From the IMG/VR virus record IMGVR_UViG_3300047457_000387, positions 1 through 39,326 of that record: a DNA stretch of 39,326 nucleotides. The stretch is one strand, 5' to 3'. The first letter of the stretch is position 1. Each line of letters opens with the position of its first letter. The stretch comes from a virus. Under the pieces are notes generated by a model. That model had not been told where the DNA came from. It did not search any database and worked only from the letters and a program-made list of their open reading frames with translations. Position numbers and translations under genes: made by a program. Positions 17,722 to 36,054 of the stretch are shown here, in pieces.

Positions 17722-19842
17722 TTATATCCCAGTCATCTCATCCAATGGTTCATAATCATCATAAGAACTATGCGGTTGATATGTAGTCTCTTGAAGGTGG
17801 CTTATATAGGCAAGGGCATCCAAACAATTATGAACAAGAACTCCATCAGCAAAAAACTCATGCCTGCCTTCAACCATTAGGTCGTAAACTGGCACGTTTT
17901 TCTCTTGCAAGCCTTGCCTGTTTTCTGTTTGTACATTCTCTACTACAAATTTTCTGGATTGACATTTTTGGCTTGAAATTATTCCCGCATTCACAACATT
18001 GCTTTTCAGGAAGGTCTCGCATGAGAGATCGTTTAGCATGTTCTCTATGCCAAGCAATTCCTTCTGGAGATGCATGCCATTTTTTTGTAAGGTGTCTGAT
18101 ACTTTCCAAATGCCGCAAACTTTGTTCTGTTTTTCCTCTGAGACTTCGCTCTTCTCTATGTTCGACTTGATGTGCGGCACTTGATAAGCAGACAAGGTTG
18201 GAGATGTCGTTGTTTTCTGAATTCCCGTCTGCATGGTGTACATGGTGTCCATCTGGAATTCGCCCGTTATGAAATTCCCAAATGTCTCGATGAAGCGATC
18301 TTGGATTTTCCTTCCATTTCGAGTGGCTTGTATAGTATAACCTGTGGCTTCGTTGTTTAGCATTTGGATAGCGGTGATACAATTTTCCGTTAAATTCAAT
18401 GGTTTCTCGCATGATACATCCTTTAATGAATGACATTCAATGATTATATCATCGTCACTTAAAGAATCAAGACTTACCCATTGCCTATTTAATGTAAATA
18501 TCCTATGTTCAGGTGTTGCTATAATACCGTATCGAGTGATAACTTCTTTATTGCCTTTACACCACGCTTTTAATACCTTTTTGAATTCACCTGAGCCAGT
18601 TAAGACATAATCATCAGTAGTAACCTCAGATATACATTTCTCACCGTTAAGAGTCATTATTAATGTGCCAGCAGGGAAGCAATCATCATGTACTCTTGGT
18701 GATGGGAATCCTATCATTTCACGCTTAATTTCATCCCAATTCTCATCTTCATTGAATACAATCCTACCATGCTCTAATAACCCTTGCAATGCGTATACTA
18801 TCCTATTCTCTTTTGCAATACCACCAGTAGAAATTGAATGTATATGTGCAAATACTTGGTTCTTACGCATCAAATCTTCCAAATAAGGAAGAACAGCTCT
18901 CATTAAAGCACCTTTTTCTATCCCAATCGCCAAAGGTTTATGTGTTCGTATTGCCATCAACACTCTAACCGCCGATTCTCGTACATCCCACCTGCCATAA
19001 TCAATCTTCTGTACCCACCAATGACCATTCTCATAAACTCTAACTACTGCTATTGCAAAATAGTCAAGATTGCTCTTTTTACCTGTTTCAGTAGTAACCC
19101 CAGTATAACCCGAAGGATCAATAGCAATATAAGTAGCATATGAGCCAAGTGGTGCTTTACCAGTTTTTAGCCACTCTATTCTTAGTAAGTTAGAACCAGC
19201 CGTATCCCATGATGCTTCATACTCTCTGAAGAACTCAGCACTGCCCATAGACTTTTTAGCAGCTTCAATCTCTGATCTCTTGATATAAGGATTATCAGCA
19301 GTAGTGAACAACCATGACTTCCATTCAGGATCATCACCATCCTGACCTCTATCAAATATCTTACGGAATTCAACTGCCTCAGGTTCAGGTGTGCCAATAA
19401 ACAATGCTCCCCCTTCCATATCAGACAAAGACGGTCTTATGCTACTTTCCCAAGTTCCATCCTTAATATCCTTCATTTCATCCAGAATCGCATAGAACAG
19501 TTTCTTACCTCTTAACCTGTCTGGCTTGTCAGCACCACGAATCTGTATCTTTACACCATTCTTTAAAGTGATATCACCATCATTGATGTGTGCTTTAGCA
19601 ATAAGCGGTTCTGCAAGCATCATTACCAAGTCCCACATCAAGTCATATGCCATCCCCTGAGTAGGTGCTACATACATCACCCTTGCATCCATTGAAGGGC
19701 ATTGTAGAGCCTTTGTAATCAACATTACAGCCGATAACCGAGTCTTACCACATCGTCTGCCAGCAACAATCACTTTGAACCGTGTATCGTCAGTATAGAC
19801 AGTTCTCTGCCATGGGGTTAGATCAAACTTTAACTCAGCCAT
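17722..19842 (-). CDS. terL: Terminase large subunit containing an intein
   Basis: 706 codons encode a 421-residue terminase interrupted by a 285-residue intein. The ATPase has Walker A GRRCGKT (residues 28-34), Walker B LFYAILDE (115-122) and a GTPEP coupling segment (150-154). The nuclease has the acidic residues IAIDPSG (Asp242), GIEKG (Glu309) and the motif HDD/CLDALAY. The intein splits that last motif between Asp387 and Cys673, so unspliced protein should be unable to cut DNA. The N-extein is residues 1-387 and the C-extein 673-706. It packages the genome together with terS, whose end overlaps the start by eight bases. Confidence 0.93.
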   Translation of the reverse strand: MAELKFDLTPWQRTVYTDDTRFKVIVAGRRCGKTRLSAVMLITKALQCPSMDARVMYVAPTQGMAYDLMWDLVMMLAEPLIAKAHINDGDITLKNGVKIQIRGADKPDRLRGKKLFYAILDEMKDIKDGTWESSIRPSLSDMEGGALFIGTPEPEAVEFRKIFDRGQDGDDPEWKSWLFTTADNPYIKRSEIEAAKKSMGSAEFFREYEASWDTAGSNLLRIEWLKTGKAPLGSYATYIAIDPSGYTGVTTETGKKSNLDYFAIAVVRVYENGHWWVQKIDYGRWDVRESAVRVLMAIRTHKPLAIGIEKGALMRAVLPYLEDLMRKNQVFAHIHSISTGGIAKENRIVYALQGLLEHGRIVFNEDENWDEIKREMIGFPSPRVHDDCFPAGTLIMTLNGEKCISEVTTDDYVLTGSGEFKKVLKAWCKGNKEVITRYGIIATPEHRIFTLNRQWVSLDSLSDDDIIIECHSLKDVSCEKPLNLTENCITAIQMLNNEATGYTIQATRNGRKIQDRFIETFGNFITGEFQMDTMYTMQTGIQKTTTSPTLSAYQVPHIKSNIEKSEVSEEKQNKVCGIWKVSDTLQKNGMHLQKELLGIENMLNDLSCETFLKSNVVNAGIISSQKCQSRKFVVENVQTENRQGLQEKNVPVYDLMVEGRHEFFADGVLVHNCLDALAYISHLQETTYQPHSSYDDYEPLDEMTGI
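17870..18412 (-). CDS. HNH homing endonuclease nested out of frame inside the intein
   Basis: 180 residues from ATG at 18412, preceded by AAAGGA at seven bases. An ATG at 18436 in the same frame is possible but would lie at the predicted transcription start. Residues about 36-83 form an HNH domain: LHRDIWEFHNGRIPDG, HHVHHADGNSENN, DISNLVCLSSAAHQVEH, with the catalytic HH and the Asn and His ligands. A C-terminal zinc knuckle follows: CCECGNNFK and ICSRECTNRK (residues about 142-170). This is the layout of freestanding phage HNH homing nucleases. The whole gene lies inside the intein on the same strand but in a different frame, overlapping even the start of block F. Its likely target is an uninterrupted terL. 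Confidence 0.9.
   Translation of the reverse strand: MRETIEFNGKLYHRYPNAKQRSHRLYYTSHSKWKENPRSLHRDIWEFHNGRIPDGHHVHHADGNSENNDISNLVCLSSAAHQVEHREERSLRGKTEQSLRHLESIRHLTKKWHASPEGIAWHREHAKRSLMRDLPEKQCCECGNNFKPKMSIQKICSRECTNRKQARLAREKRASLRPNG
18443..18470 (-). promoter_or_regulatory. Internal promoter for the HNH gene
   Basis: On the minus strand TTGATT (18465-18470) and a perfect TATAAT (18443-18448) are separated by 16 bases. The start of transcription would fall at about 18436, some 24 bases before the ATG at 18412, leaving room for the AAAGGA ribosome site. These signals lie inside intein coding sequence just after block B, so the nuclease can be made independently of full-length terL translation. 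Confidence 0.7.
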
Positions 19843-20495: not shown

Positions 20496-21176
20496 CTATA
20501 ACCTACCATCTCTACTCTTTATACGCTCATCATTCAACATCAAGAAGTACTTAACCCTGCTAGCAGGCACTACATCTGCATTCTGCCATCTACACCATGT
20601 CGCAATAGATACATCTAACTGCTTTGCAGCCATAGCCAGTGTCAATCCCAATTTCTCTCTTAACTTCTTTAAGTCTTTACCAGTCATAACATTAATCACT
20701 CCATCAATAGGGCCGGGAAACCTATATTTAACCGCAGGAGAATACTCTTTTTCAAGCCACGCATTAAGGTCATACCACAATATCTCATCAGTTATATAGT
20801 ATTTTTCATCTTCTTCAAACATATTAGAATAATTTGAATAGTACCACTCCGGTCTGTAGTTAACCTCTCCAACAGGCGATACTCGTAATAGCCTAGTTCG
20901 TGCAGCAGCAGCTACAGGGAAGTATTCGTTGCACTCTACAAGCATTATGACAGTTGCATCATATATAGAATATATACCTGTCTTACGATTATCACTGAGA
21001 ATTATAGGAACATCATGTTTCCTCTTTTCATTCTGACTTTTAACGTAATCATTATGTCTATTAACAAACTTGGTATACGATTCAGTAGGGATGCTATAGC
21101 TATCAGGCAATGGTTTATACGACTCATATGGTTTATATCTTTCATCTACTTCTTCATCTGATATTAATTCACTCAT
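20496..21176 (-). CDS. HTH (XRE-type) regulator
   Basis: 226 residues. The C-terminal third holds a classical helix-turn-helix: GKDLKKLREKLGLTLAMAAKQ, then LDVSIATWCRWQN (residues about 167-200). The N-terminal two thirds are polar and Tyr-rich, with no recognised domain. It stands at the head of the late unit facing the repeat-rich control region, so it may regulate its own unit or bind the repeats. The tail ASRVKYFLMLN resembles the tail of the neighbouring small protein. Confidence 0.65.
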   Translation of the reverse strand: MSELISDEEVDERYKPYESYKPLPDSYSIPTESYTKFVNRHNDYVKSQNEKRKHDVPIILSDNRKTGIYSIYDATVIMLVECNEYFPVAAAARTRLLRVSPVGEVNYRPEWYYSNYSNMFEEDEKYYITDEILWYDLNAWLEKEYSPAVKYRFPGPIDGVINVMTGKDLKKLREKLGLTLAMAAKQLDVSIATWCRWQNADVVPASRVKYFLMLNDERIKSRDGRL

Positions 21177-21631: not shown

Positions 21632-22084
21632 ATTCATTTCAGAAATCCTTATTGTATTCATATACTTAACCTAAAAGATGATATATGTTCAATAGAATCA
21701 ATGACTTAAGATTCGTTTCTAAAAACCTTAATGGAATCATACACTTAACCTAAAAGCTGTATTCGTTTCAGAATTCACCAATAGAATCATATACTTAACC
21801 TTAAAGCTGCAGTTTGAGAGAGTTGAGTTAGGGAAAGTGTAAAATAAAATATCCTTAATAATCATATAGTTATAAATTTCAAAACGCCTTTATATACCAT
21901 TTCCGCAGAAAACCTGCGTTAATCACTATCCCCATGATTTCAAAGGCATATTTCAGAGAAAGTATCTTTTAGGTTAACATGTTGATTCTAATAAGGTTTT
22001 TCAAAATGAATCTTTTAGAGTGATAAAAAGTGCCTATTCATTTGAAATAACGCTAATGCAATCAACTAGTTAGTTAAAAAGCTG
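21632..22084. repeat. Five dispersed copies of a 49-bp iteron-like repeat
   Basis: Copies lie at 21632-21680, 21711-21759, 21761-21809 and 22036-22084 (plus) and at 21963-22011 (inverted). Each starts with ATTCRTTT, has an AATAGAATCA-like middle and ends in TTAACCTAAAAGMTG; the 22036 copy is the most diverged. A partial copy (the middle block) lies at about 21688-21710. Equal length and shared internal spacing show they are true copies. They may bind an initiator or a repressor. Confidence 0.85.
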
Positions 22085-22112: not shown

Positions 22113-22174
22113 TTGATATAGATCAAGGTTAAGTTTGAAAATATCGGTAATATGTGAATCATGCAATGTTGCAT
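22113..22174 (+). promoter_or_regulatory. Early promoter module 1: FNR box, -10 and palindrome
   Basis: TTGATATAGATCAA (22113-22126) is a perfect match to the FNR/ANR consensus TTGAT-N4-ATCAA. A -10-like TAATAT lies at 22148-22153, placing the box centre near -41, the class II activator position. The palindrome ATGCAATGTTGCAT (22161-22174) covers the expected start of transcription. The module precedes the first early gene, and its layout is repeated at 22808-22869 with identical spacing. Confidence 0.75.
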
Positions 22175-22196
22175 ATCTAACAGGGAGTAGCTAACG

Positions 22197-22406
22197 ATGG
22201 AACATTTACACGTTTTAGAATTACGGCTATCTAATGAACGCTTGCGCTTGGCTAAAGCAACAACAATCAGCGAAATAAATTATCGAACCGTTCTCGTGGA
22301 TCAAATGATCAAGGAACTATCGCATGAAAAAGAATTCATTGGCTTTGAGCAATTAAACAATACATTAAGCGATGATGATTTGCTTGCGGAGTTAATCAAA
22401 CCATGA
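22197..22406 (+). CDS. Small early hypothetical protein
   Basis: 69 residues, first gene of the early unit, with GGGAG eleven bases before the ATG. It is helical and amphipathic (HLHVLELRLSNERLRLAKA), with an acidic end (LSDDDLLAELIKP). It is the first product made from the FNR-box promoter, the usual place for a host-modifying protein. No family is recognised. Its stop overlaps the next start as ATGA. Confidence 0.6.
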   Translation: MEHLHVLELRLSNERLRLAKATTISEINYRTVLVDQMIKELSHEKEFIGFEQLNNTLSDDDLLAELIKP

Positions 22407-22489
22407 TCATCTTAATATTTACATTATGCGTAATAGCTGGCTGTTTAATAGGCCATAGAATTAATAAACTACTGAAACGCTATCTGTAA
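22403..22489 (+). CDS. Very small membrane protein (28 aa)
   Basis: Starts inside the stop of the previous gene (ATGA overlap). It encodes a single hydrophobic helix, MIILIFTLCVIAGCLIG, followed by a basic tail HRINKLLKRYL. This is an N-out or N-in single-pass micro-membrane protein by the positive-inside rule. Small early membrane proteins in phages often block superinfection or alter host membrane enzymes, but nothing specific can be said here. Confidence 0.5.
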   Translation: MIILIFTLCVIAGCLIGHRINKLLKRYL

Positions 22490-22524
22490 ATCCTTCTTAA
22501 TTTAACCAACCAGGAAAAATAAAA

Positions 22525-22740
22525 ATGACTAGAACCGAAGCTGAACGAAACTATAAACAAACGTTAGTCGCTTTAAGAATCGCTGAAGACATATCACCTG
22601 CAGCTTACGCCACCGCATGGGAAGCGTATAAAATATCTACATCCATACTTGTGCAAGCCGAGTTAAAAAGCCCGACATCGAAAGAAAGTAAAAAAGCACG
22701 TGAAATATTAAGGCTGCGCAACCTTGGGCTAGACGTTTAA
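22525..22740 (+). CDS. Small early hypothetical protein
   Basis: 71 residues with a CAGGAA ribosome site. It is nearly all helical (EAERNYKQTLVALRIAED; PAAYATAWEAYKISTSILVQAEL), with a basic C-terminus (KESKKAREILRLRN). There is no known motif. It is the last gene of the first early transcript before the second promoter module. Confidence 0.55.
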   Translation: MTRTEAERNYKQTLVALRIAEDISPAAYATAWEAYKISTSILVQAELKSPTSKESKKAREILRLRNLGLDV

Positions 22741-22807
22741 TATATTACTGAGGAAAACAGAGTGCACAACCTCGCACTATTTGAAGTCGGGATTATTTAA
22801 CGGGTTC

Positions 22808-22869
22808 TTGATATAGATCAAAGATAATTTAAAAAATTAGCCGATAATTACACCAATGCAACATTGCAT
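22808..22869 (+). promoter_or_regulatory. Early promoter module 2: FNR box, -10 and palindrome
   Basis: The same FNR consensus box TTGATATAGATCAA (22808-22821) is followed by GATAAT (22843-22848, five of six bases of the -10 consensus) and the palindrome ATGCAACATTGCAT (22856-22869), the reverse complement of the one in module 1. Box-to-hexamer (35 bases) and box-to-palindrome (48 bases) distances equal those of module 1, while the bases between have diverged. It drives the ArdA-like gene. Confidence 0.75.
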
Positions 22870-22891
22870 AAACAACCAGGAGAATTAAAAA

Positions 22892-23263
22892 ATGAGCAAC
22901 CAAATAAACAATACGCAAGACACTATCGACAGCCGCGAAATAATAGACCGCATTGAAGAACTGGAAGGCATCGAAAACCCAAGCAACGAAGAAGCGCAAG
23001 AATTAGCAATCTTGTTAAAAGTACAGGAGCAGGCTGAGGGTTACTCAGACTGGGAGTATGGCGAGACCTTGATAAGGGAATCGTACTTTACCGATTACAT
23101 CAAGGAACTGATTGCCGATTGCTACTCAATGCCTAAGGAGTTTGAATCCGGCGCATGGCCCTGGCGACATATGACGCTCGACTACCAAGCCGCAGCGGAT
23201 GAAGCAGAATACGACTACACACGTATTGACTTTGACGGCGTGGATTACTTAATCAGGAGCTAA
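22892..23263 (+). CDS. Acidic ArdA-like antirestriction-type protein
   Basis: 123 residues, very acidic, preceded by CAGGAG and its own promoter module. The segment GYSDWEYGETLIRESYFTDY, followed by a WPWRHMTLDYQAAADEAEYDYT core and IDFDGVDYLIR, matches a widespread phage/plasmid family related to the C-terminal part of ArdA antirestriction proteins. ArdA mimics DNA with its surface acids and blocks type I restriction enzymes. At 123 residues it is shorter than classical ArdA, so activity is inferred. Expression at the start of infection suits the role. Confidence 0.55.
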   Translation: MSNQINNTQDTIDSREIIDRIEELEGIENPSNEEAQELAILLKVQEQAEGYSDWEYGETLIRESYFTDYIKELIADCYSMPKEFESGAWPWRHMTLDYQAAADEAEYDYTRIDFDGVDYLIRS

Positions 23264-29122: not shown

Positions 29123-29227
29123 CTACTTCACCATTACCATAACAATTGGTGTCCATGCAGCAATGCACAATATAAAAATACCAAGCCATGCCCAACCGAT
29201 AAATGTTATTCCGATATATGTTTTCAT
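29123..29227 (-). CDS. Small membrane protein (34 aa)
   Basis: Starts in a TGATG overlap with the Cro-like gene stop and ends just before the initiator ATG. It reads MKTYIGITFIGWAWLGIFILC and IAAWTPIVMVMVK, one long or two short hydrophobic helices. Tight packing on both sides supports translation. The role is unknown. Confidence 0.5.
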   Translation of the reverse strand: MKTYIGITFIGWAWLGIFILCIAAWTPIVMVMVK

Positions 29228-29439
29228 CATAACTCCTTAATTTTTTGTGGCTTGTTAGCTTTGTTCTTATACCGATTGAATAATTTTTGATTATCCAAGT
29301 ATATTTGTGGCGGTATGCCAAGCCGTAACCAGTTATGAACTCTTTGTTTTGAGAAGCCGAAACGCTTTGCAACAGCACTAACTCCGCCCATGCTATTGAT
29401 TATCTTGACATGCTCAAGAATGTCTTTAATTTTCTTCAC
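29227..29439 (-). CDS. Cro/YdaS-like HTH repressor
   Basis: 70 residues from GTG at 29439, with GGAGG five bases upstream; the upstream ATG at 29502 would lie within the promoter. The pattern GVSAVAKRFGFSKQRVHNWLRLGIPPQIY is a classic Cro/YdaS helix-turn-helix in which the second helix (KQRVHNWL) reads DNA. It is the first gene of the replication unit and faces the divergent plus-strand promoter, so it probably controls both. Confidence 0.75.
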   Translation of the reverse strand: MKKIKDILEHVKIINSMGGVSAVAKRFGFSKQRVHNWLRLGIPPQIYLDNQKLFNRYKNKANKPQKIKEL

Positions 29440-29472
29440 TTCCACCTCCAATTTGTTATTGACAACACGAGC

Positions 29473-29544: not shown

Positions 29545-29573
29545 TTTACTTTTCTAAAAAAGTGTTTTATTAT
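29545..29573 (+). promoter_or_regulatory. Promoter of the plus-strand recombination unit
   Basis: TTTACT (29545-29550) and TATTAT (29568-29573) are 17 bases apart, followed by a leader of about 40 bases to the first start codon. It lies back to back with the replication-unit promoter, 42 bases between the two -35 elements, so one repressor bound here could act on both. Confidence 0.6.
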
Positions 29574-30272: not shown

Positions 30273-30773
30273 ATGATAACCACAACATTAAACAGGATTA
30301 AGGAATGCAGGCCATGTCAAAATGGATGGAGGAAATTACTTAATCACCTGGGCAAAACAGAAGCTGACGACGAACCGTTGCCGTTTTCCGTGATTGTTGA
30401 ATCAAATGGACTAGATGATGCGTTATGGTGCTGTAGAGCAGAACCGCAATACGCACGAGTATGGAGGTTATACGCTGTATGGTGCGCTAGACGTGTTAGT
30501 CATTTATTGACCGATCCGCGAAGTTTAAACGCGCTTGATGTGGCGGAACAACACGCAAACGGGAATGCAACTGACGCAGAATTGGATGCTGCGTGGGATG
30601 CTGCGTGGGATGCTGCGGAGGCTGCTGCGGAGGCTGCTGCGTGGGATGCTGCGTGGGATGCTGCGGAGGCTGCTGCGGGGGCCGCGGGCCGCGGGCTGTG
30701 TGTAGCGAGGGATGCTGAACGTGAGGCTCAAAAAATTGAGTTCCTGCGTATAGTTGGAGGATTAAATGACTGA
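30273..30773 (+). CDS. Ala-rich protein with AWDAA repeats
   Basis: 166 residues. The N-terminal 100 residues are ordinary, with WCCRAEPQYARVWRLYAVWCARRV. Residues about 105-140 are pentad repeats of DAAWDAAWDAAEAAAEAAA type, an Ala-rich helix with a repeating Trp/Asp/Glu face. The repeat DNA (30586-30680) is far richer in G+C than its surroundings and ends in a GGGCCGCGGGCCGCGG-like palindrome. Such Ala-repeat proteins recur in phages and vary in repeat number. No function is established. Confidence 0.6.
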   Translation: MITTTLNRIKECRPCQNGWRKLLNHLGKTEADDEPLPFSVIVESNGLDDALWCCRAEPQYARVWRLYAVWCARRVSHLLTDPRSLNALDVAEQHANGNATDAELDAAWDAAWDAAEAAAEAAAWDAAWDAAEAAAGAAGRGLCVARDAEREAQKIEFLRIVGGLND

Positions 30774-30858
30774 ACCAGATCGTGATGATAATAGTAGATG
30801 GCAAGAAGAACAGGAACAAGAACAAGAACAAGAACAAGAACAACAGGAGAATAAATAA
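30766..30858 (+). CDS. Tiny Glu/Gln repeat protein (30 aa)
   Basis: Starts within the end of the previous gene and ends in a TAATG overlap with the annealing protein gene, whose ribosome site AGGAG lies inside it. It reads MTEPDRDDNSRWQEEQEQ and continues as an EQ repeat coded by GAACAA units. The hexamer repeat is prone to slippage. It may act mainly to couple translation to the next gene. Confidence 0.45.
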   Translation: MTEPDRDDNSRWQEEQEQEQEQEQEQQENK

Positions 30859-35980: not shown

Positions 35981-36054
35981 GAGTCGTTAGTGTAACGGTA
36001 ACACGCCGATCTCCAAAATCGGTAATGAGAGTTCGATTCTCCCACGATTCGCCA
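35981..36054 (+). tRNA. tRNA-Trp (anticodon CCA)
   Basis: The acceptor stem GAGTCGT/ACGATTC (seven pairs with one G-U) carries discriminator G73 and an encoded CCA (36052-36054). The D stem GTGT/ACAC has the conserved GG in its loop. The anticodon stem CCGAT/ATCGG has loop CTCCAAA, anticodon CCA with A37. The T arm has TTCGATT with one A-C mismatch in the stem. It reads UGG and is not an amber or opal suppressor. It closes the plus-strand unit that also codes for an RNA ligase. Confidence 0.93.

Follow-up and report, generated by a model that had tools for sequence, protein, structure and literature searches.

Two modules in a 39-kb phage are probably copies of one promoter activated by a host FNR-type regulator and repressed at a dyad on the predicted transcription start

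Two modules, A and B, found in a 39,326-base virus record (IMG/VR IMGVR_UViG_3300047457_000387, positions 1 to 39,326; hereafter the window) are probably two copies of one regulated phage promoter, activated by a host FNR-type regulator and repressed at a dyad. In this reading, a host protein from the FNR/ANR/DNR branch of the Crp-Fnr superfamily would bind TTGATATAGATCAA at about -41.5 and recruit RNA polymerase to a good -10 without a -35, which is class II activation, and a second, probably phage-coded protein would bind ATGCAA-YR-TTGCAT at +1 to +14 and shut the promoter. The genes under their control would be small accessory ones, which form a short, variable cluster where the rightward region begins. 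The features of this region and the related features of the window are as follows.

21632..22084, unstranded: 49-nt repeat array, four direct copies and an inverted copy at 21966-22014; largely kept in the relative G001
22113..22126, + strand: activator box A, TTGATATAGATCAA, putatively of FNR/ANR type; exact copy in all module-bearing relatives
22148..22153, + strand: -10 hexamer A, TAATAT, 4/6 to TATAAT, +35 from the first base of box A
22161..22174, + strand: dyad A, ATGCAATGTTGCAT, +48 from box A, predicted +1 to +14
22182..22187, + strand: ribosome-binding-like AGGGAG before the 22197 ORF (by eye)
22197..22406, + strand: 69-aa ORF behind module A, no family match (one weak, sub-threshold NCBIfam match)
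22525..22740, + strand: 71-aa ORF, second gene behind module A, no family match
22808..22821, + strand: putative activator box B, TTGATATAGATCAA, exact match
22843..22848, + strand: -10 hexamer B, GATAAT, 5/6 to TATAAT, +35 from box B
22856..22869, + strand: dyad B, ATGCAACATTGCAT, reverse complement of dyad A, +48 from box B
22878..22882, + strand: ribosome-binding-like AGGAG before the 22892 ORF (by eye)
22892..23263, + strand: 123-aa ORF behind module B, phrog_25535 (unknown function)
29227..29445, - strand: 72-aa YdaS/Cro-like HTH protein, a candidate dyad-binding repressor

A preliminary description of this DNA had reported two exact copies of TTGATATAGATCAA, at 22113 and 22808, and these are indeed the only ones in the window. 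TTGATN4ATCAA is matched twice against 0.12 expected from shuffles, none of 100 shuffles having two matches; the chance expectation is 0.001 for the exact 14-mer (order-1 Markov, both strands) and 0.15 for any TTGATN4ATCAA. Both modules have the 14-bp TTGATN4ATCAA box of class II promoters in exact form. As described, TAATAT and GATAAT follow at a distance of 35 nt, counted from the first base of the respective box, and modules A and B keep this spacing although their sequences from box to -10 have diverged. No -35 was found at the proper place, the best match to TTGACA at a spacer of 16-18 being 2/6 and 3/6 in the two modules. The placing of the box centre near -41 stands, as -41.5, provided that the A of the dyad is the first transcribed base, which is a predicted start. 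The proposed FNR class II promoter agrees with the geometry in the window and in its relatives, but the proposal left out the dyad at +1.

A search with the pattern of box, 34-nt gap and dyad returned L003/G003 and L004/G002, two IMG/VR contigs that belong to one phage type. Protein searches added a closer relative, G001 (39,308 bases), whose longer aligned blocks mostly show 85-98% identity to the window, and a fragment, G004; the nearest named phages are remote only. The module, which the preliminary description had suggested looking for in related phages, recurs in G001 and G002. The five records of the group contain 10 TTGATN4ATCAA matches, every one of them TTGATATAGATCAA; these represent 7 non-redundant boxes (window 2, G001 2, G002 3), because G003 and G004 repeat G002 sites. 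The core is ATAG in 7/7, and the flanks of the 14-mer diverge at once among the relatives. The -10 at +35 is TAAAAT in G001, TAATAT in the first promoter of G002 (G002a) and TATATT in the second, shared with the fragment (G002b/G004). The distances of 35 from box to -10 and 48 from box to dyad are kept in window A, window B, G001 and G002a, the G001 dyad, GTGCAATGTTGCAT, having one mismatch. The dyad is absent from G002b, where box and -10 are present. Relative to the gene, the box of G002b/G004 has the opposite orientation, and TATATT is still found at +35; this is what a symmetric dimer at -41.5 would give, and it speaks against a -35 hexamer. Across the five promoters the best TTGACA match at spacer 16-18 is 1-3 of 6, and a box at -41.5 from the predicted start, a -10 and no -35 are found in window A, window B, G001, G002a and G002b. 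What counts against this picture is a TTGACA directly behind the first box of G001, at spacer 15 from the -10. Additional boxes are found 49 bp upstream in G002a, with the centre near -90.5, and just 3' of the dyad in G001, at about +22.5; the latter does not fit activation. The genes behind the modules differ among the relatives and are small, variable ORFs.

The preliminary description had overlooked a perfect 14-bp dyad, ATGCAA(TG/CA)TTGCAT, exactly 48 nt from each box. ATGCAANNTTGCAT occurs in the window just at these two positions, against 0.02 expected. Counted from the predicted start at the first base of the dyad, the dyad itself occupies +1 to +14 and the box has its centre at -41.5, an arrangement that would give the module two inputs. 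The dyads at 22161 and 22856 are symmetric sites at the predicted transcription start, and a two-fold symmetric 14-mer on the first transcribed bases is in the classical position for a repressor; it is probably an operator-like site. The evidence for the dyad comes from four promoters, two of which are near-homologous. A candidate repressor, as we infer, is the YdaS/Cro-like protein at 29227-29445, whose gene region is 93-96% identical in G001, G002 and G004.

Messenger RNAs starting at the dyad (22161, 22856, G001 and G002a) would open with AUG/GUG CAA and could give leaderless MQ(C/H)CI... peptides. The dyad might act in RNA, as a 5'-terminal hairpin or as a leaderless mini-ORF (AUG CAA ...) at the first base of the mRNA. 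Folded by themselves, the 14 bases reach about -3 kcal/mol in 4/4 cases, and the A-to-G change in G001 retains a G-U pair. Read as codons by eye, the four dyads give MQCCI.., MQHCI.., MQCCI.. (with a GTG start) and MQCCI.., and in G002a the reading frame is continuous into the ORF. Nevertheless, the hairpin is weak and is retained in the minimum-energy fold of one of four leaders, the codon similarity follows from the palindrome itself, and a strict two-fold symmetric 14-mer has the appearance of an operator. We find an action in RNA rather unlikely and prefer a repressor site in DNA.

Which protein binds the box was approached through the occurrence of the 14-mer in 369 sampled bacterial genomes from the class of a Tatlockia MAG (Gammaproteobacteria). 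The Gammaproteobacteria of GTDB include the former betas. The exact 14-mer occurs 86 times in 58 of the 369 genomes, compared with a single occurrence of the backwards control and 49 occurrences, in 42 genomes, of the same-composition control core TTGATAATGATCAA. Among the 30 listed 14-mer loci of the 86, 22 do not fall within an ORF of 100+ codons; the figure is 2 for 20 TTGATAATGATCAA loci taken from the head of the listing of 49 (Fisher P = 1e-5) and about 15% for random positions in the bacterial loci. A Pfam scan of 20 ORFs 3' of bacterial 14-mers gave 9 that are respiratory, hydrogenase-related or Fnr/Crp, 6 with other domains and 5 with none. The 9 are COX1/cbb3, cytochrome cd1 (two), cytochrome c-type (three), a c7 multihaem protein, a hydrogenase maturation protease and a Crp/Fnr regulator; the genes preceded by a bacterial box thus include those for cbb3 oxidase, cytochromes c and an Fnr/Crp regulator as well as nirS. 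The -10-like hexamers near them are commonest at +34 to +37. The intergenic bias, together with the respiratory genes downstream, indicates that the 14-mer, core included, behaves as an FNR-family box in bacteria, judged by its placement. NO sensors (DNR) or FixK-like relays would fit the box equally well. Three genomes of one small order of 8 genomes (G293, G185 and G037) have 8, 5 and 4 exact 14-mers, the other sampled genomes having 3 or fewer.

A phage-coded activator of another family could bind the box with the same geometry, oxygen being irrelevant. The 14-mer, core included, is invariant in the 7 non-redundant sites, more so than the FNR consensus needs (core ATAG in 7/7), and the phage has HTH proteins (of 226 aa at 20496-21176 and of 72 aa at 29227-29445) and many uncharacterised proteins. 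Bacteria favour the ATAG core too, and have the same 14-mer in intergenic positions before respiratory genes. The Crp-type domain HTH_Crp_2 (PF13545) was found in none of four phage records (G000, G001, G002 and G004), and unrelated T4-like contigs, described below, have TTGATN4ATCAA with other cores at the same spacing. Moreover, immediate-early promoters should need no phage factor. The invariance of the core leaves a small chance to such an activator, which we regard as unlikely.

Still less can be said for a constitutive sigma70 promoter, in which TTGATA of the box would serve as the -35, with an 18-nt spacer to GAAAAT/AAAAAT, and the palindrome would be due to chance. A consensus scan does list exactly those pairs at 22113 and 22808 (9/12 matches), but such sites number 12 in the scanned stretch against 9.9 expected. 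A +24 hexamer of 4/6 or better is missing in G001, G002a and G002b whereas the +35 hexamer holds in 5/5, and the invariant second half-site ATCAA would be left unexplained, which makes this reading very unlikely. A sigma70-like promoter near 29,550, recognised by eye, has no box, so the phage would not be wholly dependent on the regulator. That the modules are merely a recent duplication without a function of its own, as their position within 700 bp of each other could suggest, is hardly credible, since the fixed elements and their spacings are kept although the intervening DNA has diverged, and since the module recurs before different genes in G001 and G002.

The preliminary description had taken the 22892-23263 product to be ArdA-like. 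The searches by family and sequence do not support this: the protein has no Pfam, NCBIfam or PADLOC match, and no ArdA is found among its PDB sequence matches. It has distant matches to Caulobacter and sphingomonad phage proteins; one phage homologue, 43.5% identical over 75%, is annotated as 'antirestriction protein'. For a low-confidence model (pLDDT 69, pTM 0.51), ArdA 2w82 came third, with E 0.94 and TM 0.32.

Upstream of module A, the 49-nt repeat array is possibly an origin or a phage regulatory array. Its repeat core ACTTAACC is also found inverted (GGTTAAGT) between box A and the -10. Elsewhere in the window, the terminase large subunit (17722-19842, - strand) contains an intein (Pfam Intein_splicing, Hint), present also in G001. 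A tRNA-Trp gene (CCA anticodon) is located at 35981-36054, and an Rfam scan of the window gave tRNA only. A low-complexity region at 30273-30858 consists of a gene containing AWDAAWDAAEAA repeats and, between it and the next ORF, a stretch of GAACAA repeats.

Searches by sequence did not point to a host. The window helicase protein had no relative among the genome contigs, and the six matches of the module pattern there are all unrelated to these phages. When 20 kb of the window were searched against the 369 genomes, the matches were mainly to the SSB gene; a second gene and a low-complexity stretch accounted for a few more. Two further genome groups (8 and 3 genomes) gave nothing useful on the host.

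Boxes with the same spacing are found in other phages. Three contigs labelled T4-like (G005, G006 and G009), a label given from reading ORFs rather than from a family scan, have 5, 4 and 3 TTGATN4ATCAA boxes; in two stretches tested, with 3 boxes each, 0.14 and 0.35 were expected. A -10 of 5/6 or better at +35/+36 accompanies 11 of the 12 boxes. Half of the 12 were not recovered by the spacing pattern, and 5 of these 6 have that -10. The cores vary (CCAG, CTAG, CTGA, CTCA, TTAG), and an ATTGA near the predicted start is conserved in most of these promoters. Downstream of them, TATAATGAYAATCATTGAAGG holds a near-dyad, AATGATAATCATT, which we take to resemble a Fur box. In a third set, 11 contigs have one box each, TTGATCTAGATCAA (in one contig TTGATCTATATCAA), at class II spacing before a gene for a 206-226 aa protein beginning MNLxxYYWYF or similar. 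This protein is perhaps, we assume, an oxygen-dependent 2OG oxygenase of marine T4-like phages. The positions and contigs are listed below (- strand where marked).

L241: 5154, 6495, 14999, repeated FNR-type class II promoters, T4-like
L240: 1106 (-), 3332 (-), the same
L242: 197 (-), the same
L237: 1501, the same
L239: 1048, the same
L243: 11133, 12792, 14802, the same
L037, L054, L058, L076, L095, L098, L111, L113, L124, L137, L140: third-set contigs

The HTH_Crp_2 domain was found in none of nine records of these other box-bearing phages. Across viral contigs in general, class II spacing is weakly enriched, with 37 matches against 30 and 14 for two control spacings, and with a ribosome-binding site and an ORF added the figures are 10 against 5 and 5. 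There being no clear general enrichment, it is the particular phages with repeated promoters that carry the claim. Among the box-spacing matches listed in the first viral scan, many were rejected as coding chance (a conserved IDLDQ-type peptide).

A broader reading, which we put forward tentatively and hold to be possible rather than probable, is that several unrelated lineages have independently placed gene sets under host FNR-family class II promoters, the lineages being the 39-kb phage group, the T4-like phages (3-5 copies each) and the group with one conserved copy. In the 39-kb group the promoter would be a two-input gate, on under host oxygen limitation and off with a phage repressor at +1 to +14, and would set the expression of accessory takeover genes by the respiratory state of the host. 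Oxygen control of infection is a prediction of this scheme. If this is true, phage gene expression would respond directly to the oxygen or NO state of the host; this is relevant to the open question why phages infect differently under anoxia.

Phage repressor operators such as those of lambda, 434 and P22 are short, two-fold symmetric sites overlapping the transcription start. The dyad of the window is like them in being short and symmetric and in overlapping the predicted start; unlike phages of the lambda, 434 and P22 type, the window has no recognised integrase or lysogeny module. In E. coli, FNR recognises TTGATN4ATCAA, with the site at about -41.5 in most activated promoters, according to the excerpted text of PMC3688515. 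The phage modules resemble the E. coli class II promoters (narG, dmsA, nirB, ydfZ and others) in having TTGATN4ATCAA at a predicted -41.5, and differ from E. coli FNR promoters in standing on phage DNA, in the second dyad at +1 to +14 and in a regulator that is putative. A promoter activated by FNR is strongly repressed when there is an FNR site between -85 and -95, and yfiD has its second box at -93.5 (PMC11264516, in extract). The boxes of G002 at about -41.5 and -90.5, placed from sequence alone, are like the E. coli yfiD/melR tandem derivatives there; in contrast to these, only one phage promoter is doubled upstream and the extra box of G001 lies downstream. In the open-licence literature no paper on FNR-type control of phage promoters was found, and in excerpts of PMC10734468 and PMC7599459 FNR appears as host physiology only. 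That host regulators time phage genes is already known from CtrA, which, according to part of PMC9437464, acts in phages of Alphaproteobacteria in lytic deferment. CtrA is a cell-cycle regulator, whereas the sensor here, as read from the DNA only, would be of FNR type.
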